Assembly: GCA_021442155.1 (NCBI GenBank)
Contig: CM038216.1
Coordinates: 83,982,945-84,046,944 of the forward strand
Reading direction: 5' to 3'
Length of the DNA: 64,000 bases
Source of the DNA: Cymbidium sinense
Taxonomy: Eukaryota > Streptophyta > Magnoliopsida > Asparagales > Orchidaceae
In this document: positions 2,607 to 51,897 of the stretch, in pieces
Position numbering within the stretch: position 1 is the first letter of the stretch
How the letters are laid out: every line of letters starts with the position of its first letter
The notes under the pieces: model-generated
Databases searched by the model: none
Told to the model about the DNA's origin: nothing
What the model saw: the letters and a program-made list of their open reading frames with translations, nothing else
Program-made: the position numbers and the translations under genes

Positions 2607-2637
2607 TGGGATTAAGGCTTGTTGTTGTTGTTGTTGT

Positions 2638-3246: not shown

Positions 3247-3739
3247 TTTTTTAACAGAGAATAAATTCAGATTCAACATTTCATCTTTTCAATTTCATGA
3301 ACCAAGTAACACACCAAGTTTTCTAACACACAAGTGATGACATAGATAAAAAATGAGCATGCATAGAGCAAATCAAAATCCATAGATAATTAGGACCCTC
3401 TCTATTATGAAGACACAGTTCCATAAGAAGCAAATCGGATCAATTTCTTCAGTTTATCTAGCTCTCGTCAGAACCACCCTGACCTCTCGAGTTGTGGGAT
3501 CCACCATCATATCCCCAATCTCTCCCTACGCCACCACCACGGCTGTAACCTCTCGGCTGCTTCCTCCCCGCTTCCATAACCACCACGCTTCAACCACTCC
3601 CTCCATATCCACCAGTACCTCCAGATCCCCCACCACCATTGTGATAACCGTCGCCTCCCCCTTCACCTCTACCACCAGATCTAGACTAAGCTTGGTTGAT
3701 GGTGATGTTCCTGCCATCAAGGTTCAGCTCATTCTTAGG
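3247..3739 (-). pseudogene. GRP (glycine-rich RNA-binding protein) retrocopy A, 5'-truncated
   Basis: Read on the minus strand, this is the 3' end of a plant GRP mRNA. It starts at a codon run for N-E-L-N-L-D-G-R-N-I-T-I-N (end of an RRM domain), continues as a Gly/Arg/Tyr-rich tail with frameshifts, ends near G-Y-D-G-G-S and has a TAG stop at 3,458-3,460. About 200 bases of 3' UTR follow, then an A-run (T-run on + at about 3,247-3,252). Loss of everything upstream plus an A-tail is the form of a processed retrocopy. GRPs bind RNA through the RRM; this fragment cannot. The right end abuts the L1 LINE, the left end telomere-like DNA. The GRP7 type is inferred from the RRM end and glycine-rich tail. 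Confidence 0.82.
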
Positions 3740-4167
3740 GTTTTGGTTTTTTTTACAAAAGTTATAATTTTATTACCTTAAAAATAAAGGATATAATATC
3801 CTTAAAAGGGGTAAAGCTCAAATTCTACTGCTCACAGAGCTACAAGAAACCTAAAGAGCTAAATCCCAATCTAAGTATAATGGAAAAAAGAAAATAAAAG
3901 AGTAAAAGCAACAACATAAAAGAAATTGAGAAATGACACAGAAAGGACTAATATTACTTAAGAAAATAGTAAAAGGACTAGTCAGCAACAACTCATGATC
4001 CCTTTGAGAAGGCAAGATAAGCAAGATTCACCTCAACAACACTTGAGTTGGCTGAGTAAAGATCATTCCATCTATGAAGTTCCCACCTGCAAAAGAAATT
4101 TGCAAAACACTACAAAGGCAATGGTCATACCTCATGGAAAAATTATAAAGTAAATAATTTAGGAGAG

Positions 4168-5923
4168 CTAAGAAAGAGGAGGCTCAAGCTCAGTTAAGAT
4201 CATCTCAAGGGGCAACAATACATATGAGCATCCAAACATCATGAGAAGGGCTACAATTATATGCATGCTACCAACCAGAGAGAAGATATTGGGAAACATT
4301 AAGGCCATCATAGCCGGATACGATATAAGCAACCATCCAAGGTAAAATAGTCCATAGTGATCCAACTTCCTACACCAAAAAATAGAGAAATAATTAGTAG
4401 CCAAGTACCCAACCAACCAAAAACCTACAATTGACCAAAACACATAAAGCCAAAGATCAAGTTATACATGGTCACTAGCTGAGAATAACCCACAATTATC
4501 TCTATAGAAATAGCAATCCAAATCCAAAGGAAAAACCTCGACCCAAATGACAAAATAGTAGAAGATAAGCAGCACTAGAGAGGGGAAAGCATAGAGAGAC
4601 CAAGAGGGCATCCAGAAATCACCATCAAAACCACCACCAATGCAGCCAAAAAGGAAAGAAAATCCACCATCACCAACTAATAAAAAAATATTAGGAAATA
4701 AGGAGAGCCAACTAAACCAAAGGGAGTCAATACCAACAATCAACATAAAGCCCAAAACACCAAGCCATGACATAAGCATCCAAGGCAAGACAGCAGCCAC
4801 AAAAAACCCCTCAATCAGCCAACCCCCAACAACAAGTCCTAAAATAGGACCAAAAAAACCACAAGAGCTCATATCCTCCAACAACAAAGTAGCCAATAAA
4901 ACCACCCAGGCCAGCAGCCAATAAAATAACTAGTAGAAGAAGTCAGAGCAACAAGAAAACCATCACCCAAATTAGGAAGTAGAAATAAAGGAAAAATAGT
5001 TACACCCAAGAGAGGATAACCAACCCAGGAGCAGACCAGAAACCCAACCAAAAGCACCTAAACCAACCATCAAACATAGCCAACACATCCACCAAGCCAA
5101 CCAACCCAGCCAACCAAAATAATAGCATACAAAGCCACAACCCACCTGGAGATCTCCAAAATAACCAACAAACAAAAATGGTAGTCACCCAGCCAAACTA
5201 AAAAAGGCCAAGGAAGACCACCCAACCATAAGCAGCAAAATTGTAAGGAAAGGAGCAAGGCCAGAGGAAAACAAAACCACTTCCAAATCCCAAAGAGCAG
5301 ATAGTCACTACAAAGGAGAAAATAGGGAGACAACAACCATAGAACAACTAACTCCAATTCACAAGGTAGATGGAACCAACCAGTAGAAACCTCCAAGCCA
5401 AACCAGAAAGGAGAAAACAACCACCAAAAAACCCAAAACTAAGCTAAGCTAGAAGAGGCCAATAGGACCCATGAAAAAATAACCACCCAAAATAGCCAGA
5501 TGAAAGAAACAAATAGTAGCAACCAACAGAACCAACTATAACATCCATAAATCCAATTCAAAAATGGCCACAACCATCCAAAACCAGAGGCAAACCCAAC
5601 ATTCGTTGGTAAAAGGGGTAGGCCAAAATCCAACATAGCGACAACCCAATAGGAGACACAAAGCATGATAAAGAAAGAAAATCCACTGCTTAAGATAGGG
5701 AAACCAATTAAAATAACCCCACAAAGACCCAAAAAAGGATAGAAAGTATAGAATGGGGTAAAGAAGAAGGGGGTGTAAGTATAGAAATAAACTCAACAAA
5801 AACCATTTCTAGAGAGGGAGCAAAAAAAACAACAAAAATAGATTGAATAAAATCACCATAGCAAAAGATCAACAAAAGAGAAGTTAAAATCGTGGTAAGG
5901 TCTAGTTTTATCCGATTGACCAC
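4168..5923 (-). other. L1 copy 1: long T/G-rich tail with hydrophobic reading frames
   Basis: Between RNase H and the poly(A) end lie about 2.2 kb of T/G-rich DNA on the minus strand with overlapping open segments (4,168-4,443; 4,462-4,905; 5,070-5,420; 5,439-5,732; 5,536-5,799; 5,708-5,923). Their conceptual products are very rich in Trp, Phe, Leu and Gly and look like strings of membrane segments. The same region exists in copy 2 with similar peptides (for example VGIDSL and F-D-G-[DN]-F-W-M). I do not recognise a known domain. It is probably a long 3' UTR whose composition gives hydrophobic codons, but a small lineage-specific ORF is not excluded. Confidence 0.5.
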
Positions 5924-6013
5924 AGATGCTTAGGTAAGCTATGGTTATCAAATAAAGTGAGCTAATTTAATTCCCCTCCCAAATTAGCCAGGAAATTAGC
6001 ATAAGCATTTGTA

Positions 6014-6420
6014 CTAAACTTGAGAAAGAAGCTCTTTAGTGTGATTAAGCAGATAAAATAAGTAAGCATTTCCCATTTTAGTATTATTGAGAATATCAAG
6101 TAAAAGAAGAGCATCAACTTCAATCCAAATATTAAAGAGGCCTTTGCTTAAAAAAATATCAATAGCTTTATTAACAACCATGAGTTCAGCATAAATAAAA
6201 GAACAAGCTTTGAGGGGTAGGCAAAAGCACAAATGATAGTGCATTTAGAATCCCTAAGAATTCTACCACAAACATATTTGTTTGGGGAAATCGAACCATG
6301 AATATTGATCTTAATAGAATATTTTTTAGGCTTAATCTAATGTATAATCCTAATACTCTTGTAGGAAGGATCGTCATGCAAAGTGATACCCAGTTTTTTA
6401 GCCACAAATTTATAACCTCT
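6014..6420 (-). pseudogene. L1 copy 1 RNase H domain, broken
   Basis: Minus-strand frames give K-K-L-G, HDDPSYKSIRI, CGRILRDSK, CAFAYP and ELMVVNKAID, the plant-type RNase H of L1 LINEs (RVT_3 family). The domain would remove RNA from RNA-DNA hybrids. The first catalytic motif, INTDGS in copy 2, reads INIHGS here, so the first active-site Asp has become His. A frame change near 6,210-6,240 splits the domain. Confidence 0.75.
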
Positions 6421-6591
6421 AAAGTGAAAATTGCTAATTAAATTTGCATTAAACAAATCATGAATTTTTTATTAAGTTCTAGCAAGGATCTAGTTTATGG
6501 TTCATAGGGATGCCACGATATTTATCATCATTTCTATCCATCCAAATGAACCAAATAAGGGTAATAGTAATTAAAACTTTGATATTACCTT

Positions 6592-6800
6592 TCATAATTT
6601 TATGGAAACAAACTTCAAGAAGTTGATATAATTAAAGAGAGCCATGAAAATAGTTAGTGTTAAATAAATCATCATACCATATCCAAATTTTAGAAGTGAT
6701 AGTGCCATTAACAAAAACATGATTAACATTTTCAATATGAAAGCAACAATAACACTTAGAAGGTAAGTAAAACCCTTTAAGTCAAAGCAAGGAATCAACC
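6592..6800 (-). pseudogene. L1 copy 1 zf-RVT zinc-binding segment, broken
   Basis: Minus-strand reading gives LKGFYLPSKCYCC-F-HIENVNH followed by WIWYDDLFNT, split over two frames. The Cys-x-Cys-Cys...His pattern fits the zf-RVT domain between RT and RNase H in plant L1 elements. The matching place in copy 2 is 62,670-62,894. Confidence 0.65.
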
Positions 6801-7022
6801 GGGATGAAGTTATTCAAAATCCTCCAAGCTAAAACTAAATAAGAAATGGGAATGATATTGTTACAAAGTTTAATGAAAACATTTTTAGAATAAAATTTCA
6901 TACCTCTTTAAGAATGAAATCACCATTATAAGAGAGCTTGAAAAGGATTTGATATGGTTTATTAGAAAAGATAGTGATGTTACAAAACTTGTCAAAAATA
7001 GAAATATGAATGTAGTTCTCAA

Positions 7023-7352
7023 GTTTTAGGGTTTAGGGTTTAGGGTCTAAGGTTTAGGATTTAGGGTTTAAGGTTTTTTTTAAAAAAATTAAGTAAATCA
7101 ATAGGTTTTGGTTTATTTAGTATATTTAGTTTATTTGTTTATTTATTTAGTGTTTAGGGTTTAGGCTATAGGGTTTAAGGTTTAGGGTTTAGGTTTTATG
7201 ATTTATGCTTTAGGGTTTTAGGGTTTTAGGGTTTAGGGTTTATAGTTTAGGGTTCAGGATTTAGGGTTTTAGGGGTTTAGGATTTAGGGTTTAGGGTTTA
7301 AGATTTAGGTTTTAGGTTTAGGTTAGGTTTTAGTTTTGGGTTAAGGGTTTTG
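7023..7352 (+). repeat. Degenerate telomere-like satellite, block II
   Basis: TTTAGGG-rich at both ends, with a short AT module in the middle that starts with the anchor (AAGTAAATCAATAGG at about 7,091). It lies between the truncated 5' end of L1 copy 1 and the poly(A) end of GRP copy B. Confidence 0.9.
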
Positions 7353-7847
7353 GGTTTTTTTTAAATAGATAACAAATTAAGATTCAACATTTCTTATTTT
7401 TTATTTCATCAACCAAGTAACACACCAAGATTTCTAAGAGATAAGTGACAACATAGTTAAAAAATGTGTATGCATAGTGGAAATGAAAACCCTAGATAAC
7501 TAGAACCATCTCTACTATAAAGACAGTTCCATAAGCAGTAGATCAAATTAGGTGTTCTTCAGTTTCTACAATTCCCATCAAAACCACCCCAGCCTCTTGA
7601 GTAGAGGGATCCACCATCATATCCCTGATCTATCCCTCCACCGCCACCGTGATCGTAAGCTTCATCGCTCCTCCCTACTCAACAACCACCACTGCTCTGA
7701 CCAGCACCTCCATATCCACCAGTGCCTTTAGATCCCCCACCACCACTGCAATAACTGCCGCCTCCACCTTCACCACCATGGCCAGATCTAGACTACGCCC
7801 TATTGATGGTGATATTCCTGCTATCTAGGTTCTACCCATTCTTAGGG
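7353..7847 (-). pseudogene. GRP retrocopy B, 5'-truncated
   Basis: Same fragment as copy A: RRM end, Gly/Arg-rich tail, 3' UTR and A-run (T-run on + at about 7,354-7,362). It is truncated at the same upstream place (CCTAAGAATGGGTAG on minus at about 7,846). The ancestral stop has been lost: the codons after the G-G-[FS]-D-G-N end read AAT TGT instead of AAC TAG (about 7,565-7,572). Frameshifts lie in the glycine-rich part. It has telomere-like DNA on both sides. Confidence 0.8.
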
Positions 7848-10800
7848 ATTAGGTTTTGGTTTAGGTTTATTATTTTAGGTTTTTTTTAATATATTTAGTT
7901 TCTTTAGGTTTATGGTTTATGTTTAGGGTTTATTTAGGGTTTAGGTTTAAAGTTTAAGTTTATAGGGTTATTAGGTTTATTTTAGGGTTTAGGGTTTATT
8001 TTTTTAGGTGGTTTTAGTTTTAGGGTTTAGGGTTTAAGGTTTAGGATTTATGGTTTAAGGTTTCTTTTTTTAGAAAAAAATAAAGTAAACTGGTAGGTTT
8101 AGGTTTCTTAAGTTTATTTCATTTATTTTTTATTTATTTTAGTTTTTTTAAAAGTTTACTTTTTATTTTTATTTAGTTTAGTTTATTTTTCTTTATTTTT
8201 AGTTTAGGGTTTTTATTTTAGTTTATTTTTTAGGTTTAGGTTTATTTCTTCTATTGAGTTTTATTTTTTAAGTTTAGGTTTTATTTTTTATTTTTAGATT
8301 TTTATATTATTATTTTAAGTTTAGGTTTTAGGTTTTTATTTTAGGTTTTATTTTTTAGTTTAGGTTTAAGTTTTATTTTTTAGTTTAGGTTTAGATTTAG
8401 TTTTTTTTTAAGTTCAAGTTTAGGTTTTATATATTTTAAATTAGGTTTAGGTTTATGTTTATTTTGTTTATTTTCTTTTTATTTCAAGTTTAGGTTTTTT
8501 TATAGTTTTGGGTTTAAGTTTTATTTTTTATTTATTTTTAGGTTTATTTTTTTGGTTTACATTTTTATTTTGTTTTTATTTTATTTTGGTTTTTTATTCT
8601 TAAGTTTATTTTTTTTAGTTTAGTTTAGGTTTTATTTATTTTATTTTAGATTATTATTACTTTTTATTTTATTGTATTTTTAGGTTTAGGTTTAAGTTTT
8701 AGTTTAAATTTTATATTATTTTAATTTTTTATTTTATATAGGTTTAGGTTTTTTTATTTATTTAATTTTTTCTTTAATTTAATTTAGGTTTAGGTTTTTA
8801 CATTTTTAGGGTTTAGGGTTTAGGAGTGGTTTTAGGGTTTTAGGGTTTAGGGTTTAAGGTTTTAGGGTTTAGGGTTCAAGATAGGTATAAGGTTTAAGGT
8901 TTAGTCTTTAGTGTTTAGGGTTTTTAGGGTTTAGGGTTTTATGTTTAGCTTAAGGTTTAAGGTTAGTTTAGGGTTTAGGGTTAGCAGGGTTTAAGGATTT
9001 AGTTTAAGTTCTAGGTTTAAACTTTAGGTTTTAGGTTTTATAGATTAAGTTTAGGTTTAGGTAAGTTTAGAGTTTAGGTTTAGGTTTTAGGGTTTAAGTT
9101 TAGGTTTAAGGTTTAGAGTTTAGGGTTAGGGTAAGGTTTATAGTTTAGTGTTTAGGGTTTCAATTTAAGTTTAGATTTAGGTTTAAGGTTTAGAACTTTA
9201 GGTTTATGATTTAGGTTTAAGTTTTAAGTTTATGGTTGTTTAAGGTTTATAGTTTATAGTTTAGGTGTAGAGTCAGGATTGAGCTTTAAGGTGTTTAAAC
9301 TTTAGGGTTTAGAGTTTTAAGTTTGAGTTTAAGTTTAGGTTACAAGGTTTATTTTAGGGTTTAGGTTTACTTTAAGTTTAAGTTTTAAGTTTAGGGTTTT
9401 GGGTTAGGTTAGAGTTTATGGTTTAGGGTTTAGGGTTTTGGGGTTTAAAGTGTAGGGTTTAGGGTTTAGGGTTTAGGGTAAGGGTTTAGGGTTTAGGGTT
9501 TACGATTTAAGGTTTAAGGCTTAAGGTTTAGAGTTTAGGATCAAGGGTTTATGGTTGTTAGTTTAGGGTAAGTTTAGGGTTTAGAGTTGTTAGTTTAAGG
9601 TTTAGGGTTTAGGGTCAATTTTAGGGTTTAGGGTTTAGGGTTTAGGGTTTAGTGTTAGTTTAGAGTTTAGGGTTTTTTTTTCTAAATTGTGTAAGTCGGT
9701 ATGTTTATGTTTATTTAGTTAATCTAGTTTTATTTTTATTTTTTATAGTTTAGGTTTTATTCTTTATTTTTATGTTTAGGTTTAGGTTTTTATTTTATTT
9801 TTTTAGGTTTAGGTTTTAGGTTTTTATTTAAAGTTTATTTTTAAGTTTTATTTTTTTGTTTAGGTTTAGGTTTATTTTTAGATTATTTTATTTTATTTAG
9901 TTTAGGGTTTAGGTTTAGTTTATTTTAGGTTTAGGTTTTATTTATTTTAGTTTAGGTTTAAGTTTATTTATTTTGTTTATTTTAGGCTTAGGTTTTTTTG
10001 TTTAGTTTAGGGTTTTGGTTTTATTTTTTATTTATTTTTTGTTTTTTATGTTAATTTTTTTGGTTTATGTTTTTATTGAGTTTTTATTTTGTTCTATTTT
10101 AGGTTTATTTTATCTTTATTTTTCATTTGTGCTTTATTTTATTTAGGTTTTATTTAGGTTTATTATATATTTTTTAGTTTAGTTTATGTTTTTATTTATT
10201 TTATTTTAGTTTTTATTTTTTATTTGACTTTATTTTTTGTTTAGGTTTAGGTATATGTTTAGGTTTTAGTTTAGGTTTTTTTTTTTTATTTTTTTATGTT
10301 CTTTTATTTTGGTTTAGGTTTTTATTTATTTATTTTATTTTTAGGTTTTATATAGTTTAGGTTTAGGTTTTAAGGTTTTTTGGGTTTTAGTTTTAGGATT
10401 TAGGGTTTAGAGTTTAGGGTTTAGGTTTAGGATTTAGGGTTTAGGTTTTAGGGTTGTAACTTTTAGGGTTTAGTGTTTTTATGTTTAGGGTTTAGGGTAT
10501 AGGGTTTAGGGTTTAGGGTGTAGGGTTTAATGATTTAAGGTTTAAGTGTTGTAGGTTTTTGGGTTTAGGGTTTAGGGTTTAGGGTTTAGGGTTTAGGGTT
10601 TTAGGGTTTAGGTTTAGGGTTTAAGGTTTAAGATTTAGTATTTTAGTGTTTACGATTTAGGGTTTAGGGTTTAGGGTTTAGTGCTAGAGTTTTTTTTTAT
10701 TATTTTAATATTTTTTATTTAGGGTTTAGGATTTTGGGTTTACGGGTTTTTAGGGTTTAGGATTTACGGTTTAGGGTTTTGGTTTGGTTAGCTTTAGGGT

Positions 10801-13800
10801 TTAGTGTTTAGGGTTTAGGGTTTAGGATATAGGGTTTAGGGTTAAGGGTTTAGTGTTTAGGTTTTTTTTAAAAAAAATTAAGTAAACCATTTGGTTTAAG
10901 TTTATTTAGTTTAGTTTATTTTGTTTTTTATTTTTATTTAAGTTTATTTTTTTTATTTTGTTTAGTTTATTTATTTTAGGTTTATTTATTTTAGTTTTTG
11001 GTTTTTTTGGTTTATTTTCTATGTTTAGGTTTAGGTTTATGTTTCTTTTTTAGTTTAGTTTTATTTTTATTTTATTTTTTTTTGTTTAAGTTTTATTTTT
11101 TATTTTTAGGTGTAAGTTTAGGTTTTTATTTTATTTTTTTATGTTTAAAGTTTAGGTTTTTTACTTTAGGTTTATTTTTAGGATTTATTTTTGTTTAGGT
11201 TTAGGTTTATTTTAGTTTATTTACTTTAGGGTTTAGGTTTAGTATATTTTAGGTTTAGGTTTAGGTTTAGGTTTTATTTATTTTAATTTTAAGTTTTTTT
11301 AATTTAGTTTAGGTTTTTAGGTTTTTAGGGTTTAGGGTTTAGGGTTTGGGGTTTAGGGTTTAGAGTTTAGGGTTGTAGATTTTAGGGTTAGTGTTTAGGT
11401 TTAGGGTTTAGGGTTTGAGGTTTTAGGCTTTAGGTTTTAGATTTAGGGTTTAGGTTTAGGCTTTAGGGTTTCAGGGTTTAGAGTTTAGGGTTTAGGGTTT
11501 AGGGTTTAGGGTTTAAGGTTTAGGGTTTTTTTTTTTTTATTTTTATTTTATTACTTTTAAAAATTAAGTGAACTGGTAGGTTTAGGTTTATTTAGTTTAT
11601 TTAGGCTTAGGTTTTTTTTTCATTTAGGATTTAAGTTTTATTTTTTATTTATTTTTAGGTTTTATTTATTTATTAGGTTTAGGTTTTTATTTATTTTATT
11701 TTAGGTTTATTTAATTTTTTTATGTTTAGTTTTTATTTTATTTTAGTTTTTTATTTGTAGGTTTATTTTATTTTTTAGTTTAGTTTAGGTTTTTATTTAT
11801 TTTCTTTTAGTTTTTTATTTTTTTGGGTTTAGGTTTAGGTTTTCGTTTAGGTTTTTATTTTTTTTATTTTATTATTATATTTAGGTTTTTTATTTATTTT
11901 ATTTTTAGGTTTTATTAAATTTAGGTTTAGGTTTTAGGTTTTTAAGGTTTAGGGCTTATGCTTAGGATTTAACATTTAGGATTTAAGGTTTAGGGTTTTT
12001 AGGGTTTATGTTTTAGGTTTTAGGGTTTAGAGTTTAGGTTTAGGTTAGCTTAGGGTTTAGGGTTAGATTAGGGTTTAGGGTTTAGGGTTTAGGCTTTAGG
12101 GTTTAGGGTTTTTAGGGTTGAGGGTTTAGGGTTTTTAAGGTTTATGGTTTAGGGTTGTAGGTGTAGGGTTTAGGGTTTAGGGTTAGTTTTAGCATTTAGG
12201 GTTTAGGGTTTAGGTTTTTTTTAAATGAAGTAACCCGACAGGTTTTGGTTTATTTTGTTTATTTAATTTATTTAGTTTATTTAATCTATTTTATATATTT
12301 ATTTGGGTTTATTTTTAAGTTTATTTATTTTCATTTAGGTCTTTTATTTTTGTTTATCTTTTATGTTTAGGTTTAGGTTTAAGTTTATTTTTTAGTTTAG
12401 TTTTATTTTTATTATATTTTTTTAGGTTTAGGTTTGCTTTTTTTTATTTTTAGGTTTAGGTTTAGGTTTATATTTTATTTTTTTAGGTTTATGGTTTAGG
12501 TTTTTACTTTTGGTTTATTTTTAGGTTGTATTTTTTAGTTTAAGTTTAGGTTTATTTTTTAGTTTATTTTATTTTATTTAGTTTAGGGCGTAGGTTTAGG
12601 TTTAGGTTTTATTTATGTTATTTTTTGGCTTTTTTTAGTTTAGGTTTAGGTTTTTTTAGGTTTTAGGGTTTAGGGTTTAGGGTTTAGGGTTTGGGGTTTG
12701 GGGTTTAAGGTTTTGGGTTTAGGATTATAGTTTTTAGGGTTTATGGTTTGGGGTTTAGGGTTTAGGGTTTTAGGGTTTAGGCTTTAGGTTTAGGGTTTAG
12801 GGTTTTACGATTTAGGGTTTAGGGTTTAGGGTTGTAGGTTTAAGGTTTAGAGTTAGTTTTAGGGATTAGGGTTAAGGTTTTTTTTGCTTTATTTATTTTA
12901 TTTTTTGATTTTCTTAAATTTATTGAACTTGTTGGTTTAGGTTTATTTAGTTTATTTGTTTTATAAATTTTAGTTTATTTTCTTTTTTATTTTTATCTAG
13001 GTTTATTTTTATTTTTATTTTATTTAGTTTATTTGTTAGTTTAGGTTTCTTTATTTTAGTTTATTTTTTATGTATAGGTTTAGTTTAGGTTTATTTTGTA
13101 ATTTAGCTTTATATTTATTTTATTTTTTAGGTTTAGGTTTTATTTTTTATTTTTAGGTTTAGTTTTAGGTTTTTCTTCTATTTTTTTGGTTTAGGTTTTA
13201 GCTTTTTATTTTAGGTTAATTTTTAGATTTTATTTTTTAGTTAAGGTTTAGGTTTATTTTAAGTTTATTTTATTTTGTTTAGTTTAGGTTTAGGTTTAGG
13301 TTTAGTTTATTTTAGATTTAGGTTCAGGTTTTATTTATTTCAGTTTACTTTATTTTAGTTTAGGTTTAGTTTTTTTTAATTTTGTTTATTTTATTTTTAT
13401 TTAAGCTTTAGTTTTTTTAGCTTAAAGTTTAGGTTTCATTTTTTTATTTCTTTCTATGTTTTATTATTAGGTTTATTTTTGAGGTTTAGGTTTTTGTTTA
13501 GTTTTTATTTTATTTTATTTTAGGTTTACTTTATTTTTATTTTAGATTTAGTTTTTATTTTATTTAGGTTTTTTATTCTTAAGTTTATATTATTTTTAGT
13601 TTAGTTTAGGTTTTTATTTATTTTATTTTAGTTCATTTTGATTTTTTATTTTATTTTATTTTTAGGTTTAGGTTTAGGTTTAAGTTTAAGGTTTAGTTTA
13701 GGTTTTTATTTTTATTTAATTTAATTTAATTTTATTTATATTTAGGTTTTTAGGTTTTTTAGATTAAGGGTTTAAGGTTTAGGGTTTAGGGTTTGGGGTT

Positions 13801-15238
13801 TAGGGTTTAAGGTTTAGGATTGTAGGTTTTAGGGATTAGGGTTTAGGGTTTTAGGGCTTAGGGTTTTGGAATTTGGGTTTTAGGTTTAGGGGTTTAGGGT
13901 TGTACGTTTAGGGTTTAGGGTTTAGGGTCTTAGGGTTTAGGGTTTAAGGTTTAGGGTTTAGGGTTTAGCATTTTAGGGTTTAAGGTTTAGGGTTTAGGAT
14001 TCTAGGTTTAGGGTTTAGGGTTTAGGTTTAGTTTTAGCGCTTAGGGTTTACGGTTAGGGTTTTTTTATTTTATTTTATTTTAGTATTATGTTTTTTTAAA
14101 TAAAGTAAACTCAAAGGTTTATGTTTATTTTTTTATTTTTATTTATTTTAGTTTATTTTATTTTTATTTTTATTTAGGCTTATTTTTATTTTTATTTAGT
14201 TTAGTTTTATTTTAGGTTTATTTATTTTAGCTTATGTTTTTTATTTTAGTTTATTTTTTAGGTTTAGGTTTATTTTTTAGTTTTGTTTTCTTTGTATTTT
14301 ATTTTTTTGGTTTAGGTTTTATTTTTTATTTTTAGGTTTAGGTTTTAGGTTTTTATTTTAGGTTTATTTTTATGTTTTAGTTTTTAGTTTAGGTTTAGGT
14401 TTATTTTTAGTTTATTTTATTTTTATTTATTTTAGGTTTAGGGTTAGGTTTTATTTATTTTAGTTTACTTTATTTTAGTTTAGGTTTAGGTTTATTTTAT
14501 TTTATTTATTTTATTTTTATATTAAGTTTAGTTTTTTTTTAGTTTAAGGTTTAGGTTTTATTTTTTATTATTTTTAAGTTTTATTATTAGGTTTATTTTT
14601 TAGGTTCAGATTTTTTTTAGTTTTTATTTTATTTTATTTTAGGTTTATTTTATTTTTATTTTAGGTTTAGTTTTTATTTTATTTTATTTTTTTAGTTTAG
14701 TTTAGGTTTTATTTATTTTATTTTAGGTTAGTTTTTATTTTCTTTCTTAGGTTTAGGTTTAGGTTTAGGTTTAGGTTTATGTTTTAGTTTATGTTTTTAT
14801 TTATTATTTTATTTTATTTTAAGGCTTTTTATTTATTTTATTTTTATGTTTAGGTTTTTATTTTTTTTATGGTTTAGGGTTTAGGGTTTAGGGTTAGTTT
14901 AGGGCTTATGGTTTATTATTTAGGCTTTGGGGTTTATGGTTTACTGTTTAGGGTTTAGGGTTTAGGTTTTATGGTTTAGGGTTTAGGGTTTAGGGTTTAG
15001 GGTTTTAGGGTTTAAGGTTTAGGGTTTAGGGTTTAGGGTTTAGTATTTTTAGGGTTTAGGATTTAGGTTCTACATTTTATGTTTAGGGTTCAGGTTTAGG
15101 GTTTAGGGTTACAGGTTAGTGTTAAGGTTTAGGGTTTTGTTTTTATTTATTATTTTTTTCATTTTAGTTTTTATGGTTTTATTTAGGGTTTAGGGTTTAG
15201 GTTTAGGGTTAAGGTTTTAGTTTTGGTTTTGGGATTTG
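7848..15238 (+). repeat. Composite telomere-like/AT-rich satellite, block III
   Basis: About 7.4 kb of alternating blocks. TTTAGGG-rich stretches lie at about 8,805-9,670, 10,385-10,865, 11,310-11,530, 11,935-12,215, 12,655-12,880, 13,760-14,060 and 14,870-15,220. AT-rich stretches (TTTATTTTAGG words) lie between them and mostly open with AAGTAAACYGGTAGGTTT or a variant (near 8,083, 9,691, 10,880, 11,565, 12,227, 12,921 and 14,103). Landmark words recur in order inside the AT stretches. The + strand is almost free of C. No gene is visible; the open frame at 10,998-11,198 is compositional. Confidence 0.9.
10561..10600 (+). repeat. Perfect (TTTAGGG)n run
   Basis: Six consecutive GGG tracts spaced by TTTA without a mismatch, one of the longest perfect plant-telomere runs in the window. 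Similar runs occur near 16,946-16,989, 47,223-47,256, 53,098-53,134 and 55,049-55,083. Four such tracts are enough in principle for a G-quadruplex on the + strand. Confidence 0.85.
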
Positions 15239-15717
15239 GTTTTTTTTTTTAAAAGAGAATAAATTCAGATTTAACATTTCTTCTTTTGATTTTATCAACC
15301 AAGTAACACACCAAGTTCTTTAGGACACAAGCGATGACATAGATCAAATATGAGCATGCAAATAGCAAATCAAAAATCCTAGATAATTAGAACCATCTCT
15401 ACTGTAAAGACAAAGTTCCATAAGCAGCAGATTGAAATTATCGTTCTTCAGTTTCTTTAGTTCCTATCAGAACCACCCCGGCCTCTTAAGTAGCGGGAAC
15501 CACTGTCATATCCTCGATATCTCCCTCCTCCACCACCACAATTTTAACCTCCATCGGTCCTCCTGCCTCCATAAACCACAGTGCTCCAGCCACCAACTCC
15601 ATATCCACCAGCACCTCCAGATCCCCTACCATTCGAGCTTGCCGCGCCTTCTCCACCCAGATCTAAGCCTAGTTGACGGTGTTGTTCTTGCCATCAAGGT
15701 TTTTCCCATTCTTAAGG
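15239..15717 (-). pseudogene. GRP retrocopy C, 5'-truncated
   Basis: Minus strand: the RRM end appears as D-G-K at about 15,690, then a Gly-rich tail and G-G-S-R-Y-L-R-G-R-G-G-S, with a stop TAA at 15,457-15,459 at the ancestral position. About 200 bases of 3' UTR and an A-run follow (long T-run on + at about 15,239-15,250). It keeps the same 5' truncation point as the other copies. Part of the Gly-rich segment is shortened relative to A, D and F (missing around 15,590-15,650). Satellite flanks it on both sides. Confidence 0.8.
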
Positions 15718-18318
15718 TTTAGGTTTATTTTTTAGTTTATTTAGTTACTTTAGGTTTAGGTTTAGGGTTTGGGTTTTATGGTTTAGGGTTTAGGGTTAGG
15801 GTTTAGGGTTTAAGGTTTAGGGTTTAGTGTTTTAGGTTTTATGCTTTTAAGGTTTAGAGATTAGGGTTTAGTGTTATGGGTTTTTTAGGGTTTAAGGTTT
15901 AGGTTATAGGTTTAGGGTTGTATGTTTAGGGTTTAGGGTTTAGGCTTTTAGAGTTTAGAGTTTAGGGTTAGGGTTTAGGGTTTAGTGTTTAGGGTTTTTA
16001 GGGTTTAGGGTTTAGGGTTTAAGGTTTAGGGTTTAATGTTGTAGGTTTATTATTGTAGGACTAGGGTTATAGGTTTAGGGTTTAGGGTTTAGGGTTTAGG
16101 ATTTAGGGTTTATGGTTTTTTTTAAAGATAAGTAAGCCGATAAGTTTAGGTTTATTTAGTATATATAGTTTTTTATTTATTTATGTTAGTTTAGTTTATT
16201 TATTTTTATTTAGTTTAGTTTAATTATCTTAGGTTTATTATTTTTGTTTATTTTTTAGGTTTAGGTTTATTTTTTAGTTGAGTTTTATTTTTATTTTATT
16301 TTTTAGGTTTAGGTTTTATTTTTTATTTCTAGATTTAGGTTTAGGTTTTTATTTTATTTTTTAGGTTTAGGTTTTAGGTTTATTTTTAGGTTTTATTTTT
16401 TTAGTTTAGGTTTAGGTTTATTTTTATTTTATTTTATATTATTTTATTTAATTTAGGTTTACATTTAAATTTAGTTTATTTTAGGTTTAGGTTAAGGTTT
16501 ATTTATTTTAGTTTAGTTTATTTTAGTTTAGGTTTAGGTTTATTTTATTTTTATTTTAGGCTTAGATTTTTTTTTGTTTAGGGTTTAGGTTTTATTTTTT
16601 ATTTATTTTTAGGTTTTATTTTTAGGTATATTTTTTAGGTTTAGGTTTTCATTTATTTTATTTTATTTTAATTTAGGTTTATATTATTTATTTTATGTTT
16701 AGTTTTTTTATTTAGGTTTTCTATTTGTAGGTTTATTTTATTTTTTTAGTTTAGTTTAGGTTTTTATTTATTTTATTTTAGTTTTATTAATTTTTTAATT
16801 TTATTTTTTGAGGTTTAGGTTTAGGTTTTAGTTTAGGTTTTTATTTATTTTATTTTATTTTATTTTGATTTAGATTTTTTATTTATTTTATTTTTAGATT
16901 TTATTAAATTTAGGTTTAGGTTTTTAGGGTTTAGGGTTTAGGATTAGGGTTTAGGGTTTAGGGTTTAGGGTTTAGGGTTTAGGGTTTAGTGTTTAGGCTT
17001 TAGTGTTTAGGGTTTAGTGTTTAAGGTTTAAGGTTTAGGGTTTAGGTTTAAGGTTAGGTTTAGGTTAGCTTAAGGTTTATAGTTTTAAGGTTTAGGGTTT
17101 AGGATTTTTAGGGTTTAGGTTTAGGGTTTATGGTTTAAGGTTTAGGGTTTTAGGGTTTAGGGTTAGTTTGGTGTTTAAGGCTTGTGGTTTAGGGTTGTAA
17201 GTGTAGGGTTTAGGGTTTGAGGTTAGTTTAGGGTTTAGGGTTTAATGTTTAGGGATTTTTTTCTAAATTAAATAAACTGACAGGTTTAAGTTTATTGATT
17301 TTTTTTTTATATATTTATTTAGGTTTATTTTTTGCTTTATTTAATTTAATTTATTTATTTTTATTTAGGTCTTTTATTTTAGTTTATTTTTTAGGTTTAG
17401 GTTTAACTTTAGATTCATTTTTTTAGTTTAGATTTATTTTTATTTTATTTTTTTTAGGTTTAGGTTTTATTTTCTTCTTTTTAGGTTTAGGTTTAGGTTT
17501 TTATTTTATTTTTAGTTTTTGGTTTAATTTTAGGTTTAATTTTTTTTAGTTTTATTTAGGTTTATTTTTAGATTATTTTATTTTATTTATTTTAGGGTTT
17601 AGGTTTAGTTTATTTTATGTTTAGGTTTAGGTATTATTTATTTTAGTTTAGTTTAGGGTTTAGTTTATTTTAGTTTAGGTTTAATTTATTTTATTTTATT
17701 TATTTTATTTTTATTTTAAGTTTAGTTTTTTTTAGTTTAATGTTTAATTTATTTTTTATTTATTTTTAAGTTTATTTTTTAAGTTTAGGTTTTTATTTAG
17801 TTTTTATTTGATTTTACCTTAGGTTTATTTTATTTTTATTTTACATTTAGATTTTATTTTATTTGCATTTTTATTTTTAGGTTTATTTTAATTTTTAATT
17901 TAGTTTAGGTTTTTATTTATTTTATTTTATCTTAGTTTATATTTTTATTTTATTTTTTTTAGGTTTAGGTTTAGGTTTTAGTTTAGGTTTTCATTTTATT
18001 TTATTTTATTTAAGCTTAAGTTTTTTTATTTATTTTCATTTTAGATTCTATTTAGTTTAGGTAGGTTTTATGGTTTTTAGGGTTTTTTAGGGTTTGGGTT
18101 TTTGGTTTAGGGTTTGGGTTTAAGGTTTATGGTTTAGGGTTGAAGGTTTTGGGTTTTGGGTTTAGGGTGTGGGGTTTTGGGTTTAAGGTTTAGGTTTTGG
18201 GTTTTGGGTTTAGGTTTTTAGGGTTTAGGGTTTAGGGTTTAGGGTTTAGGATTTTTAGGGTTTAGGGTTTAGGGTGTAGATTATAGGTTTAGGGTTCAAG
18301 TTTTTGTTTAGTTTTTGG
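15718..18318 (+). repeat. Composite telomere-like/AT-rich satellite, block IV
   Basis: TTTAGGG-rich stretches at about 15,720-16,115, 16,920-17,255 and 18,060-18,318, separated by two AT-rich modules that open with anchor variants near 16,129 and 17,270. The perfect TTTAGGG run at about 16,946-16,989 is among the longest. No gene is visible. Confidence 0.9.
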
Positions 18319-18790
18319 TTTTTTTTAATAAAGCATAAATTCAGATTCAACATATCAACCACATAACACGCCAAGTTTTCTAGGTCACAAGCGATGACAT
18401 AGATAAAAATTGAGTACTCATAGAGCAAATCAAAAACCCTAGATAACTAGAACTATCTCTACTGTAAAGACACAATTCCATACGTAGCAGATCGGATTGG
18501 CCATTCTTTAGTTTCTCTAATTCCCTTTAGAACCAACATCTCGTGTAGCGAGATCCACCATCATATCCCCGATCTCTCCATCCACCATCACCATGGTTGT
18601 AACTTTCGTTGCTCCTCCCGCCTCAAAAACCACCACTACTCCGTCCACTACCTCCATATCCACAAGCACCTCCAAATCCCCCACAACCACTATGATAACT
18701 GCCACCTCCGCCTTTGTCTCCACATCCAGATCTAGAATGAGCCTAGTTGACGGTGATGTTCTTGCCATCAAGGTTCTGCTCATTCTTAGG
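18319..18790 (-). pseudogene. GRP retrocopy D, 5'-truncated
   Basis: The minus strand starts at a codon run N-E-Q-N-L-D-G-K-N-I-T-V-N, followed by TAG where the family has Gln, then A-H-S-R-S-G and a Gly-rich tail. The stop TAG at 18,517-18,519 is at the ancestral position. A minus-strand frame stays open from 18,783 to that stop (88 codons), but much of it is the shifted, Val/Asp-rich frame, so it is not a working GRP. The 3' UTR and A-run (T-run on + at about 18,319-18,326) complete the retrocopy. Confidence 0.82.
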
Positions 18791-21700: not shown

Positions 21701-22098
21701 TTTATTTTATTTTAGGTTTATTTTAATTTTATTTTACATTAGGGTTTTATTTTATTTAGGTTTATTTATTTTTTTTAGTATAGTTTAGGCTTTTATTTAT
21801 TTTGCTTATTTTACTTTTTGTTTTTTGTTTGATTATATTTTTAGGTTTAGGTTCAAGTTTTATTATAGGTTTTTATTTTAGTTTATTTTATTTAGGTTAT
21901 GGTTTTTTTTATTTTTTATTCTTAGGTTTTATTTAGTTTAGGTTTAGGTTTTTATGTTTTTAGGGTTTAGGGTTTAGGGTTGTTGGTTTTAGGGTTTAGG
22001 GTTTAGGGTTTAGGTTTTGGTGTATTTAGGATTTATTATTTATGGTTTAGGTTTTAGGTTTAGGGTTTAGGTTTTAGTTTATGGTTTAGGGTTTTTAG
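18791..22098 (+). repeat. Composite telomere-like/AT-rich satellite, block V
   Basis: Three successive units of about 1.0-1.1 kb: anchors at about 19,103, 20,133 and 21,194, each after a T-run that ends a TTTAGGG block and each followed by an AT-rich module with the same landmark order. The word TTATTCTTA[AG]GTTTA lies about 625-630 bases after the first two anchors. This is the clearest tandem part of the satellite. No gene is visible. Confidence 0.9.
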
Positions 22099-22169
22099 TT
22101 TTTTTTAATAGAGAACAAATTCAGATTCAACATTTCTTCTTTTCGATTTTATCAACTATGTAACAAACC
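22099..22169 (-). pseudogene. GRP retrocopy E, only the 3' UTR end left
   Basis: About 70 bases match the distal 3' UTR and A-run of the other GRP copies (GAGAACAAATTCAGATTCAA on + at about 22,110, after a T-run). Similarity stops near 22,169, where the LTR-retrotransposon island begins. The missing part does not reappear at the other edge of the island (46.2 kb). Confidence 0.75.
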
Positions 22170-25925: not shown

Positions 25926-25926
25926 A

Positions 25927-41015: not shown

Positions 41016-41072
41016 TCTCCAAAGCAAAGCATAAATGTATCCAAGTCTATAAGTGAAATAGTTAGGCATCAG

Positions 41073-42410: not shown

Positions 42411-42479
42411 TCAAAATCTATCAGAGAAGTTCAAGGCAATATTAGAAATGCCACCCCCTAAAAGTTTAACTCAACTCAA

Positions 42480-43090: not shown

Positions 43091-43099
43091 TTCACCACT

Positions 43100-43700: not shown

Positions 43701-43904
43701 CCCAAGCCCATCAGATGAAGTAGAGAGCACTTTCTTACACTATTGTGGATGGTGTCTTGTACTAGTGATCTTTCAATTATATATGGTTTGTTATTTAGAC
43801 AAGCATGAAGCTCGTAAGATCGTGATTGAGGTACACTCAGGATTATGTGGAGCCAACCAATCCGATATAAAGATGAAAGCTAAGATCAAGATACTAGGAT
43901 ACTA

Positions 43905-46205: not shown

Positions 46206-46616
46206 TTAGGGATAGGGTTTAGGGTATTGAAATCACTTATAGTCAAGGAAAGTCTCTTGAAGTCATTTTCTTTAGATACCATAACTATGTTAGATGAGGT
46301 CATTCTATAGATTTACTCCTAATGACATCTTTATTCAAGGTTTAGGGTTTATAGTTTAGGTTTAGGGTTTAGTGTTAGTTTAGAGTTTAGGGTTAGTTTA
46401 AGGTTTAGGGTTTAGGGTTTAGTGTTTAGGGTTTAGGGTTGTAGGTTTTATGTTTTAGGGTTTGTGGTTTTAGGGTTTAGGGTTTAAGGTTTTTTTAGGG
46501 TTTAGGGTTTAGGGTTTAGGGTTTTATGTTTAGGGTTGAGGGTTTAGGGTTTAGCGTTCAGTGTTTAGGTTTTCAGTTTAGGGGTTAAGTTTTAGTTTAG
46601 GGTTTAGGGTTTAAGG
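46206..46616 (+). repeat. Degenerate telomere-like satellite, block VI
   Basis: TTTAGGG words start at about 46,206, are interrupted by about 105 bases of unrelated sequence (46,233-46,337), then continue to the A-run of GRP copy F. G-rich polarity is again on +. Confidence 0.88.
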
Positions 46617-47110
46617 TTTTTTTAATAGAGAACAAATTCAGAGTCAACATTTCTTATTTTTGATTTCATCAACCAAGTAGCACACCAAGTTTTATATGAC
46701 ACAAATGATGACATAGATAAAAAATGAGCACCCATAGAGCAAATATAAAACCCTAGATAAGTAGAACCATCTCTACTATAAAGACACAGCTCCATAAGCA
46801 ATAGATCAGAATGTCCATTATTTAGTTTCTCTAGTTCCTAACAGAACCACCCCCACCTCTCAAGTAGCGGGATCCTCCCTCATATCACTGATCTCTCCCT
46901 CTGCCACCACCACAACTGTAACCTCTGCCACTCCTCCTGTCTCCATAACCACCACTGCTCTAGCCACCATCTCCATATACACCAGCACCTACAGATCCCC
47001 CACCACCACTGTGATAACTGCCGCCTCAGCCTTCACCTCTAGCACTAGACTTAGACTGAGCCTAGTTGATAGTGATGTTCCTGCCATCAACGTTTTTCCC
47101 ATTCTTAAAG
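46617..47110 (-). pseudogene. GRP retrocopy F, 5'-truncated
   Basis: Full-length for the amplified fragment. On minus: truncated RRM end at about 47,105, N-I-T-I-N, TAG in place of the conserved Gln, a Gly-rich tail, G-G-S with TAG stop at 46,831-46,833 at the ancestral position, 3' UTR and A-run (T-run on + at about 46,617-46,623). Frameshifts lie in the Gly-rich part. The same in-frame TAG is seen in copies A and D, so it predates amplification. Confidence 0.82.
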
Positions 47111-47987
47111 TTTAGGATTAGTTTAGAGTTTAGGGTATAGGGTTAGTTTTGGGTTTAGGGTTCAGGGTTTGGGGTTTAAGGTTTAGAGTTGTGGGTTGTA
47201 GGGTTTAGGGTTTAGGGTTTAAGTTTTAGGGTTTAGGGTTTAGGGTTTAGGGTTTAGAGTTTAGGGTTTAGGGTTTAGGGATTAAGGTTTTAGGGTTTAA
47301 GGTTTAGGGTTTAAGGTTCAGTGGTAGTGTTTAGGGTTTAGGGCTTAGGGTTTATGGTTGTAGTTTAGGGTTTAGGGTTAGTTTTAGGGTTTAGGGTTTA
47401 GGGTTTAGGATTTAGGATTTAGGTTTTTCTTAAAGTTAAGTAAACCGATAGGTTTAGGTTTATTTAGTTTATTCTTTATTTATTCGAGTTTATTTTATTT
47501 TTTATTTTTATTTAGGTTTATTTTTTATTTTTATTTGGTTTAGTTTTGTTATTTTATGTTTATTTATTTTAGTTTAGATTTTTTAATTTAGTTTATTTTT
47601 TAGGTTTTGGTTTATTTTTTATTGAGTTTTATTTTTATTTTATTTTTATGTTTAGGTTTTATTTTTTAATTTTAGGTTTCAATTTTTATTTTATTTTCTT
47701 AGGTTTAGGTTTTAGGTTTTTATTTTAGGTTTACTTTTAGTTTTTATTTATTTTTAGTCTAGGTTTAGGTTTATTTTTAGTTAATTTTATTTTATTTAGG
47801 GTTTAGGTGTAGGTTTAGGTTTAGTATATTTTAGGTTTAGGTTTAGGTTTAGTATATTTTAGGTTTAAGTTTAGGTTTTATTTATTTTAGTTTAGTTTAT
47901 AGTAGTTTAGGTTTAGGTTTATTTTATTTTTATTTTAAATTTAGATTTTTTTTAAGTTTAGGGTTTATGTTTTATTTTTTATTTTTA
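47111..47987 (+). repeat. Composite telomere-like/AT-rich satellite, block VII
   Basis: A TTTAGGG-rich stretch to about 47,425, then an AT module that opens with the anchor at about 47,437 and follows the usual landmark order (TTGAGTTTTATTTTTATT at about 47,622). The AT module is cut by RTE copy 2 at about 47,987 and seems to continue after it at 50,974, so the LINE inserted into an existing satellite unit. Confidence 0.9.
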
Positions 47988-48234
47988 GCACTAACCATTG
48001 TCGGTCCCAAGTCCGGATGTGAAAAGTGGAGGGTTGCGTTATGTAGTCGACAGCCAGCGTAAAACTTGTCAAAATAATCATGACATGAATCCTTTAAATC
48101 ATTGTGTTAATGCTAGATCCCAGGCGGCGTGTATGGCTTGAATACGTGAAAATGTGCTAGAAACCCTTGCATCGGCCAGTACAATGTTAAATAAGCAAGG
48201 ATTCCCACATTGTGGACAGATGTGGGAAAAGAAG

Positions 48235-48870
48235 TTAGTCCATGAAACTAGAATTAGGTTAGGATCTTTGAATATAGGTACTCTTACAGGTAAATTATTA
48301 GAATTAATAGATATTATGGTTCATAGAAAGATAAATATTTTATGTGTTCAAAATAACTAAATGGGTTGGGGAGAAAGCCAAGGTGATTGAGAGTTTAGGT
48401 TTTAAACTTTGGTATTCAGGTAAAAGTGGAACTAGAAATGGTGTAGGTGTGATTATAGATAAAAGTTTGAAGGATAATGTGATAAATATTAATAGATGTG
48501 GAGATAGAATTATAGCTTTAAAGATTATTGTTGATACTAAGATTATCAATGTTATAAGTGTCTATGCTCCTCAAGAAGGTTTGGAGGTAAGTGCAAAAGA
48601 AAAATTTTGGAATGAATTGAGGGATTAATACAAAAGATACCTCTTGAAGAAAAAGTATTTATTATAGGAGATTTAAATGGACATGTTGGTAGAGTGGTAG
48701 AAGATTTTAAAAGTATTCATGGTGGTTATGGATTTGGAGTGACTAATGAAGAAGGTAGGACTATATTAGATTTTGCTTTAGCTTATGACTTTGTAGTTGC
48801 TAACACTTTATTTAAGAAAAGAGATGAACATATTATTACTTATAAAATGGATCTAGTAAAACACGATTGA
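48235..48870 (+). pseudogene. RTE copy 2 apurinic-type endonuclease
   Basis: RLGSLNIGTLTGK and IDIMVHRKINILCVQ at 48,253-48,352, then after a +1 frame change near 48,350, KWVGEKAKVIESLGFKLWYSG, GVGVIIDKSL and VISVYAPQ (about 48,548-48,572). A further frame change and IIGDLNGHVG at 48,661-48,690, then ILDFALAYDFVVANTLF. This is the APE-type endonuclease that nicks target DNA for LINE priming. The Asp of GDLNGH remains; the Glu normally after CVQ is lost at the frame break. Confidence 0.8.
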
Positions 48871-48979
48871 TTATTTTCTGATAAGAAAAATAGATCGTTT
48901 AGATTGTAAAGATTGTAAGGTCATTCAAGTGAAAATCTAAGTACCCAACATCGATTGTTAGTTTTAGATTTTAAGATGA

Positions 48980-50940
48980 AAGGTTGTAAGAGAAAAAATA
49001 AACCAAATTATTATCCTAGAATTAGATGGGGACACTTAAAGAACACAAATAAAAATATTTTTAAGAGCAAGCTACAAGAGATTAGAATTTGGGATGTTCA
49101 TGAGGAAGCTAACAATATATGGAAATAAATAGTAAGTGAAATTAAGCAAATTGCTAAAGATGTGCTTGGAGAATCAAAAGGAAAAGCTTCTTTTAATAAG
49201 AATAGTTGGTGGTGGAGTCAGAGTGTGCAAGAAAAGATAAAAAATAAGAAGTATTGTTATAAAACTTGGTTTAGATGTAAAAACTCGGAGAATTGGGAAA
49301 GATATAAAGTGGTCTGTAGAGATTCTAAGAAAGCAATATATAATGCAAAAAATTTAGCTTTTAGTGATTTATACAATAGATTAGATACCAAAGAAGGTGA
49401 AAGATGTATGTATAAGTTAGCCAACCAAAGAGATAGGAGAAGTAAAGACATAGTTCAAGTGAGGTGTATTAAGGATGCCACTAATAAAATGCTTTTTTTA
49501 GAAAAGGATATTAAAAATAGGTGGATGAGGTATTTTGATAAACTTTTCAATGAAGGATCTGAAAGTACAATTGATTTTAGCAACCTTAATACCCTAAACA
49601 AAAATAAAGAATTTCATTTTTATCATCGTATTAGTAAATCTGAAGTTAGTGAATCTTTAAAGAAAATGAAATGTGGAAAAGCAGTATGACTAGATAATAT
49701 TCCAATAGAAGTGTGGAAATATTTAGGAGATCAAGGAATTTCTTGGCTTACTAATCTTTTTAATGTCATTTTAAAGACTAAAAAGATGCCAGATGAGTGG
49801 AGAAACAATTTGTTGGTTCCTATATTTAAGAATAAAGGTGATGCACAAGAGTGTGCAAATTATAGAGGAATTAAGTTAATGTGCCATACATTAAAATTAT
49901 GGGAGAGAGTAATTGAGCATAGGTTACGATGTGATACAGAAGTTTCTCACAATCATTTGGTTTCATGCCAGGTAGATCTACTATGGATTCTATACATTTG
50001 TTAAGGGGTTTGATGGAGAAGCATAGAGAAAGTAAGGAGGATCTACATATGATATTTATGATTTAGTGAAACTTATGATAAAGTTTCAAGAGATGTTCTT
50101 TGGAGAGTTCTAGAATAGAAAAGAGTTAATATTGGTTATATTCAACTCATTAAGGATATGTATACTAGAGTTTACTTGTGTCCAAATGCAAGGAGGATTG
50201 ACAAAATATTTTGCTATTTCAATTGGATTACATCAAGGATCATCTTTAAGCCCTTATCTTTTTTACTTTAGTTATGGATGTTCTTACTAGGCATTTACAA
50301 GAAGATGTACCTTGGTGTAAGCTTTTTGCTGATGACATTCTTTTTATTGATAAGAGAGGAGTCCAAAACTTGAATTATGGAGGTCAACTCTAGAGTCTAA
50401 AGGTTTTCATTTAAGTAGATCTAAAACTGAATATATGGTGTGTGTTGTAGAAGTTTTAGTGGTAGTGTTGTGACATTAGGTGATAAGAGTGAGCATTAAT
50501 TTAGGCTCTATTTTTCAAAATGATGGTGAAATAGATGGAGATGTTATTAGAATTCAAGTTGGATGGTTGAAGTGGAGGAATACATCACTTAAACTTATGA
50601 TATAAGATGGTGGTAAGACCCAAACTTAAAATTTTATAAAAGACCAAGAATAGTAGGTAAATGCTTACTATGCTTTATAGATATAAATGTATATTCAAGT
50701 TGGGTAGATAATATTAGGGAGAGTCACCTTAGATGGTTTGGCCACATAAAGCGTCGGCCATCTGATGACCTGATTAGGTGAGTAGATGCATTAGATTTTC
50801 CTTATGTTAAGAAAGGTAGAGGTAGACCTAAAAAGACTTAGTTAAGATGTATAAAAATGATATTAGTATACTTGATTTAAATGAGAATTTGACACATAAT
50901 AGGACACAATGGAGACGAAGGATTCATATAGTCCACCCCA
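48980..50940 (+). pseudogene. RTE copy 2 reverse transcriptase, broken
   Basis: The longest intact piece is 49,162-49,689 (175 codons; RRSKDIVQVRCIKD, RWMRYFDKLFNEGS), followed by 49,711-50,004 (KMPDEWRNNLLVPIFKNKG, NYRGIKLM). The catalytic box at about 50,325-50,342 still reads LFADD, unlike copy 1, but its frame is broken on both sides. Parts of the C-terminal domain are deleted or replaced between about 50,585 and 50,712. WFGHIKRRP at about 50,735 and GRGRPKKT at about 50,815 are visible before the tail. Confidence 0.8.
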
Positions 50941-50973
50941 CCTAGTGGGATTAAGGCTTGTTGTTGTTGTTTA

Positions 50974-51477
50974 TTTTCTAGGTTTTGGTTTTTATTTAGT
51001 TTTTATTTTATTTTATTTTATTTTATTTTATTTTTATTTTAGGTTTAGTTTTTATTTTATTAAGGTTTTAATTTTTTTTAGTTTAGTTTAGGTTTTAATT
51101 TATTTTATTTTAGTTTTGTTTTTAATTTTATTTTATTTTCTTTTTAAGTTTAGGTTTAGGTTTAGGTTTTAGCTTAGATTTTTTATTTTATTTATTTTAT
51201 TTTTATTTTGGTTCTTTTATTGATTTTATTTTTAGGTTTTATTTTGTTGAGGTTTATGTTTTTATCCTTTTAGGGTTTAGGTTAGTTGAGGGTTTAGGGT
51301 TTAAGGTTTGGGGTGTAGGGTTTAGGGTTTAGGATTTAGGGTTTAGTGTTTAGGGTTTAAAGTTTAGGGTTTTGGGTTTAGGGTTTAGGGTTTAGGTTTT
51401 AGGGTTTAGGGTTTATGGTTTAGGGTTTTAGGGTTTTGGGTTTTAGGTTTAGGGTTTTAGGGTTTTAGGTTTGAGGG
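50974..51477 (+). repeat. Composite telomere-like/AT-rich satellite, block VIII
   Basis: The AT-rich remainder of the module interrupted by RTE copy 2 (to about 51,265), then TTTAGGG-rich DNA to the A-run side of GRP copy G. No gene. Confidence 0.88.
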
Positions 51478-51897
51478 TTTTTTTTATTTAATTAACAGAT
51501 ATTTCTTTTTTTAATTTCATGTAATGCATAATGATGATATTAAATGAGCACAAAGACCCAGATAACTAGAGTCATCTTTACTTTAAAGAAAAAGTTCCAT
51601 AAGCTGCATATCATATTGGTTGTTCTTCAATTTCTCCAATTCCCATCAGAACAACCCCGACCTCTCAAGTAGTTGGATCCACCATCATATCCCTGAACTC
51701 TCCCTCCGCCACCACTTGTCCCTCTCACTCCAGCCTCCTGCTTGCTTTGACCACCACCTCCATTTCAACTAGCACCACCAGATCCCCCACCACCACTACG
51801 ATAACTATCGCCTCCACCTTCACCTACTTCGCTAGATGTAGACTAAGATTAGTTGACGGTGATGTTCCTACCATCAAGGTTATGCACATTCTTAAGG
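51478..51897 (-). pseudogene. GRP retrocopy G, 5'-truncated
   Basis: Minus strand: same upstream truncation (CTTAAGAATGTGCATAACC at about 51,893), D-G-R-N-I-T-V-N, then a stop where Gln is expected, Gly-rich tail, and R-G-[CG]-S-D-G-N followed by TGG, so the terminal stop is lost (about 51,638-51,646). The 3' UTR is shorter than in A-D and F, lacking part around 51,515-51,530. A T-run on + at about 51,478-51,485 marks the A-tail. Confidence 0.78.

Follow-up and report, generated by a model that had tools for sequence, protein, structure and literature searches.

A 5'-truncated GRP retrocopy probably amplified within a telomere-like satellite of the orchid Cymbidium sinense

How did the same piece of a glycine-rich RNA-binding protein (GRP) transcript come to lie seven times in telomere-like DNA? 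The question is raised by a stretch of 64,000 nucleotides of the Cymbidium sinense genome (hereafter the window), in which a first-pass annotation had placed seven minus-strand GRP fragments. BLASTN searches of the window with copy A (E up to 1e-3) matched exactly seven places on a single strand, the same seven and no others; the other six copies are 73.6-87.0% identical to copy A (E 1.3e-18 or better). The explanation that we consider likely is that one 5'-truncated retrocopy of a GRP mRNA was inserted once, was amplified together with a telomere-derived satellite and has since decayed as a set of pseudogenes. The candidate retrocopies are:

3244..3736, minus strand: copy A; stub of poly(A) at 3244-3252 and 5' truncation at about 3736, with an L1-type LINE starting a few bases further on
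7355..7843, minus strand: copy B, delimited by BLASTN and alignment
15240..15713, minus strand: copy C; 3' flank in common with A, B, E and F, best matches of the 5' flank in G and D
18319..18787, minus strand: copy D; 5' flank in common with G
22099..22169, minus strand: copy E; the last 70 bases and the poly(A) stub only, cut by non-satellite DNA that starts here
46617..47106, minus strand: copy F, delimited by BLASTN and alignment
51478..51893, minus strand: copy G; the most diverged, with internal deletions, the Trp codon and the final stop being kept (GNWRN*)

Fragments A-G correspond to the transcript of a plant-type GRP. Their translated pieces exhibit the end of an RRM domain (NGQNLDGRNITxNxAQSR-like), followed by a Gly-rich tail and the stop region, a combination shared with plant glycine-rich RNA-binding proteins, of which just the final RRM codons are kept here. 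The best match of the 93-residue consensus among solved structures (PDB) is 4c7q, a plant glycine-rich RNA-binding protein, aligned at the last 18 residues (NGQDLDGRNITVNEAQSR); the score (E 0.012) is weak since the match is so short, yet it fits the right place of the RRM domain. The comparison of the consensus protein with Pfam (E up to 0.1) matched no family. We take the relatives of the fragments to be of the GRP7/GR-RBP1 type.

The DNA around the copies is a telomere-like satellite, found in the following parts of the window:

2640..3243, plus strand: satellite remnant between an RTE-type LINE and copy A
7022..22098, apart from copies B-D, plus strand: main array, with TTTAGGG-like blocks, the landmark AAATTAAGTAAACTGGTAGGTTTAGGTTTATTTAG and T-rich bodies, arranged head-to-tail
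46340..47985, plus strand: satellite around copy F, ending at the insertion of the second RTE-type LINE
50970..59543, plus strand: satellite that surrounds and follows copy G, as far as the second L1-type LINE

Monomers are often about 1.1 kb long and are made up of a TTTAGGG-like block (200-400 bp in most cases), the landmark motif and a T-rich body close to 770 bp in length (consensus 769 bp). The landmark, picked by eye from the window itself, gave 19 matches in an edit-distance scan (distance up to 7), all of them inside the satellite, and the T-rich bodies can be aligned with one another (16 of 20 were used; those after 7120, 11595, 47467 and 58028 were dropped as short or interrupted), so that the array shows the head-to-tail monomers and recognisable unit of satellite DNA. 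TTTAGGG accounts for 490 units in 23,566 satellite bases, which are interrupted by other DNA; among the heptamer variants TTTAGGT and TTTAGGG are the commonest. The T-rich part of 7850-22098 and 50970-59543 shows the conserved body of about 770 bp with the landmark at its start. An exact scan of viral contigs with a 23-base piece of the landmark and a comparison with Rfam at gathering scores yielded 0 matches each.

The spacing of the landmarks is uneven, from about 0.64 to 2.3 kb, and where no GRP module intervenes it is often 1.02-1.19 kb (16159-17297, 19132-20161, 20161-21223 and 52236-53351). The directly following landmark ends 265-442 bp from the GRP module in B, C, D, F and G; there is none at A, where a LINE intervenes, or at E, which is cut. 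With 7 GRP modules against 19 strong landmarks, at irregular intervals (7 landmarks separate B from C, 2 separate C from D, 3 D from E and 1 F from G), the module is carried by a minority of monomers. Counting the offsets of shared 18-mers revealed no single dominant period, and a regular higher-order repeat is therefore unsupported. Long self-matches (12,540-18,328 against 15,712-21,190, 74.6%; 17,770-22,094 against 50,969-55,182, 73.6%) agree with a duplication of stretches of several monomers, although on their own they prove little, since pieces of the satellite also give alignments of about 69-72% at numerous further offsets.

The satellite is bordered or interrupted by LINEs:

1..2640, plus strand: first LINE that we take to be RTE-type; RVT_1 in 1284-2000, (TTG)n at the 3' end, an insertion into satellite that extends past the window edge
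3740..7021, minus strand: truncated LINE beside copy A, which we take to be L1-type; matches the LINE at 59544 in pieces (73-83%)
47986..50970, plus strand: second RTE-type LINE; one piece scanned, with no Pfam family
59544..64000, minus strand: second L1-type LINE, extending past the window edge; RVT_3 (RNase H-like) domain in 62043-62564

The ends of the copies are the first evidence for a single truncated retrocopy. The alignment revealed that the left end of A, B, C, D, F and G is identical, (A)AGAATG, at one codon near the end of the RRM, and that it is preceded by CCCTAAA-like DNA. The truncation at the same codon, as annotated earlier, was thus borne out in all six copies that keep the 5' end, and differing truncation points, named beforehand as an observation that would speak against a common origin, are absent from all six. 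At the other end an A-run (9, 8, 11, 8, 8, 7 and 8 bases in A-G, seen as a T-run on the other strand) begins directly at the end of the UTR in 7/7 copies, which is the poly(A) hallmark of a processed pseudogene. Inspection of the GRP junctions by eye revealed no unique target-site duplication; the flanks are degenerate heptamers, which would hide any such duplication.

Or could the last exon and 3' UTR have come straight from the genomic DNA of a GRP gene, without passing through RNA, the A-run being satellite sequence? The intron of GR-RBP genes probably lies upstream of the part kept in the copies, and this part is too short to show the loss of an intron. One intron is given for 76.92% of the branch I GR-RBP genes of five plants (PMC11021534). 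Runs of at least seven T are moreover commoner in the satellite as a whole, with 116 in 23,566 bp (0.49 per 100 bp). However, they are rare in the TTTAGGG-like blocks (11 in 8,452 bp, or 0.13 per 100 bp, with block limits set by hand), and the position of the A-run directly at the UTR end in every copy argues against such a coincidence. We regard genomic capture as decidedly improbable.

The pattern of divergence also bears on the single retrocopy. Had the copies come from distinct functional GRP genes, or from a single gene at well-separated times, they should differ most at third codon positions. Here, in the six copies other than E (left out as too short), the differences from the consensus at codon positions 1, 2 and 3 amount to 78/549, 83/551 and 78/549 (14.2, 15.1 and 14.2%), and 139/1,107 in the UTR; the shared variant states are likewise 17, 16 and 13 at the three positions. 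As the three codon positions differ equally, divergence mostly arose after coding had stopped, which suggests that the loss of coding constraint preceded most of the divergence between copies, and the counts bear no trace of a presumed divergence between functional parent genes. The coding part contains 139 singleton and 46 shared variant states. Compared with plant GRP proteins, translation and alignment reveal in-frame stops in all six copies with coding sequence, and indels also in A, C, D and G; together with the equal divergence of codon positions, these stops indicate the loss of coding constraint typical of processed pseudogenes.

The stops do not, however, group the copies in the way proposed in the first-pass annotation, which had reported a stop shared by A, D, F and G where Gln is expected. 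According to readings made by eye from translations and alignment, the first Gln/Glu codon is a stop in C, D and F (TAG) and G (TAA), with CAA in A and AGG in B; the second Gln codon is TAG in A, B, C and G, with CAT in D and CAG in F; the third Gln-like codon, in the tail, is a stop in A (TGA) and F (TAG); and the Trp codon is a stop in A, C, D and F. The set A, D, F and G is found at none of the four sites. Most of the stops amount to C-to-T type changes in either strand (e.g. CAG to TAG, TGG to TAG), and because such changes can recur, shared stops are poor evidence of common descent; as a proof of it they were rejected, since the sets of copies differ from site to site.

Trees were built for the six longer GRP copies and for the 16 T-rich bodies. 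The former is star-like, with a median end branch of 0.14 (0.25 in G) and none of its three forks well supported; the latter is star-like as well, with a median end branch of 0.15 and 0 of 13 inner branches well supported, and the units that bear GRP modules form no well-supported cluster in it. Since the end branches in both trees are similar, the GRP copies appear to be about as deep as the surrounding monomers, and the insertion probably preceded, or fell within, the burst from which the array arose.

If a single insertion was multiplied together with its surroundings, some of the flanking satellite may still be recognisable. The flanks were compared in four ways: by global alignment, by a best-match search with indels, by mean edit distance and by an in-register rank test, the best-match and rank tests having been adopted following a comparison of the flanks by eye. 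Global alignment scores showed no overall excess over random satellite windows, most pairs being not significant, with the exceptions of D-G, which is clear, and a few others such as A-F over 200 bp (0.008) or C-F (0.02-0.03). Neither did the mean edit distance reveal an overall signal relative to random satellite sites (z -1.3 and -0.5). Pure heptamer blocks resemble one another in any case.

On the 5' side, the 63-base flank of D finds its best match in the window at G (edit distance 8, next site 14), D and G being each other's best match, and the flank of C matches best G (3) and then D (5), followed by another site at 6. For B other sites match better, with no GRP flank among the best 16 matches, and the 5' flank of F, which is not common with that of other copies, was left out of the best-match search. 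On the 3' side, A, B, C and F each match best the flank of E (edit 5 each); E itself matches best a site at 7,219 (edit 4) and then A, B and C (5 each). The 3' flank of D finds A, tied with two other sites (edit 8), and that of G matches ordinary heptamer blocks.

In the rank test of the 3' flanks, 20/20 ordered pairs among A, B, C, E and F fall within the best 4.1% of satellite sites, and 18/20 within the best 1%; this group was defined with the data already in view. For the 3' side of all seven copies the mean percentile of 0.130 is lower than any of 14 random sets gave (their mean being 0.251 and their minimum 0.137). D and G fall mostly outside the 3'-flank group (D to C 0.019, C to D 0.165). 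The 5' side gave no overall signal (0.508 against a null of 0.486), D and G picking each other (0.000 both ways); C fails this test because its match is out of register. Copy C would thus link the group with common 3' flanks (A, B, C, E, F) with the group with common 5' flanks (D, G), and we read the pattern of the flanks as that of one insertion whose flanks have since been eroded.

Another possibility is that a GRP copy, already truncated and transcribed, was retroposed repeatedly, in a SINE-like manner, into telomere-like DNA. The star-like tree with its prevalence of singleton variants, the same 5' and 3' ends of the copies, the presence in the window of two LINEs with a reverse-transcriptase or RNase H domain and the partial likeness of the flanks would all be compatible with this scenario. 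However, flanking satellite common to A, B, C, E and F, and to D, G and C, is unexpected of separate insertions, and the BLASTN search with copy A found no copy outside the satellite within the window. Repeated retroposition thus appears unlikely, and amplification of a single insertion is preferred.

Under single insertion and amplification, a GRP messenger RNA would have been reverse-transcribed, presumably by a LINE, and a single 5'-truncated copy would have been inserted into the TTTAGGG-like part of one monomer of the telomere-derived satellite. Tandem amplification, perhaps by unequal exchange or circle-mediated copying, would have spread this monomer with its flanks among ordinary monomers, and the copies would then have decayed independently as pseudogenes, accompanied by LINE insertions and rearrangements. 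The initial proposal of one retrocopy turned satellite module is therefore retained as to a single truncated copy that was multiplied, in view of the shared breakpoint, the lack of a third-position excess and the partly shared flanks; its argument from shared stops is dropped, and it is refined in that the module is not present in every unit.

Nothing indicates a function of the GRP modules. The seven copies all lie in antisense orientation to the TTTAGGG strand, and one could imagine that TERRA-like transcripts of this strand include GRP modules in antisense and give rise to small RNAs regulating the host GRP gene, the module being retained thereby; if true, this would connect the control of an RNA-binding protein with a telomere-like satellite. 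However, the common orientation would already be fixed by one insertion and the copies diverge freely at all codon positions, which makes such a role extremely improbable compared with passive amplification of a dead retrocopy.

Retrocopies inside satellites are already known from other satellites, and the GRP modules may be regarded as another example. In the D4Z4 macrosatellite of human 4q35 the DUX4 retrogene is embedded in the units of a tandem array (PMC5849414, PMC2965761). The likeness lies in a retrotransposed gene within tandem-array units; the difference is that in D4Z4 each unit contains the retrogene, which can be expressed, whereas the orchid satellite is telomere-like and a dead, 5'-truncated copy is found in a minority of its units. 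Long non-terminal arrays of TTTAGGG and its variants are described for seed plants, e.g. in pericentromeric blocks of Cycas, where TTCAGGG makes up 22-31% of the variants (PMC8621592, PMC9827991); here TTCAGGG is outside the 15 commonest variants listed, the variant spectrum being unlike that published for Cycas, and in contrast to the Cycas arrays so described the satellite has kb-scale monomers, a T-rich body and GRP inserts. No paper among the open-access matches listed, judged by titles and the starts of abstracts and with the subscription literature mostly outside, reports a telomere-like satellite together with a GRP retrocopy. The case suggests that a retrocopy inserted by chance can become part of a spreading satellite and then serve as its marker: the GRP modules are alignable sequence amid degenerate heptamers and T-rich DNA, with a tree of about the same depth as the satellite-body tree, and would help to trace the expansion of telomere-derived arrays in plants.

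Further observations concern the other elements of the window. Identity between the two RTE-type LINEs is 90.7% over 1.77 kb, and the T-rich body left after them extends for about 360 bp in one case and about 270 bp in the other before a TTTAGGG-like block follows; given these differing lengths, they look like separate, later insertions. The first of them contains a 384-bp tandem duplication (1592-2355, 93% matches). Both L1-type LINEs (3740 and 59544) end against TTTAGGG-like DNA, and the one at 59544 begins about 400 bp past the spot where the colinearity of 7129-15248 with 51252-59143 predicts another GRP module. A 4-kb inverted repeat (36780-40807 and 41020-45019, 74.8% identical) contains stop-free pieces that we take to be integrase-like (37536-37910, minus strand) and RNase H-like (38304-38603, minus strand, and 43268-43555, plus strand), and perhaps comprises two LTR-type elements in opposite orientation. 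Finally, a 1.5-kb direct repeat (24068-25553 and 32073-33570, 68.6% identity) is rich in GGTCAA/TTGGGT-like words.
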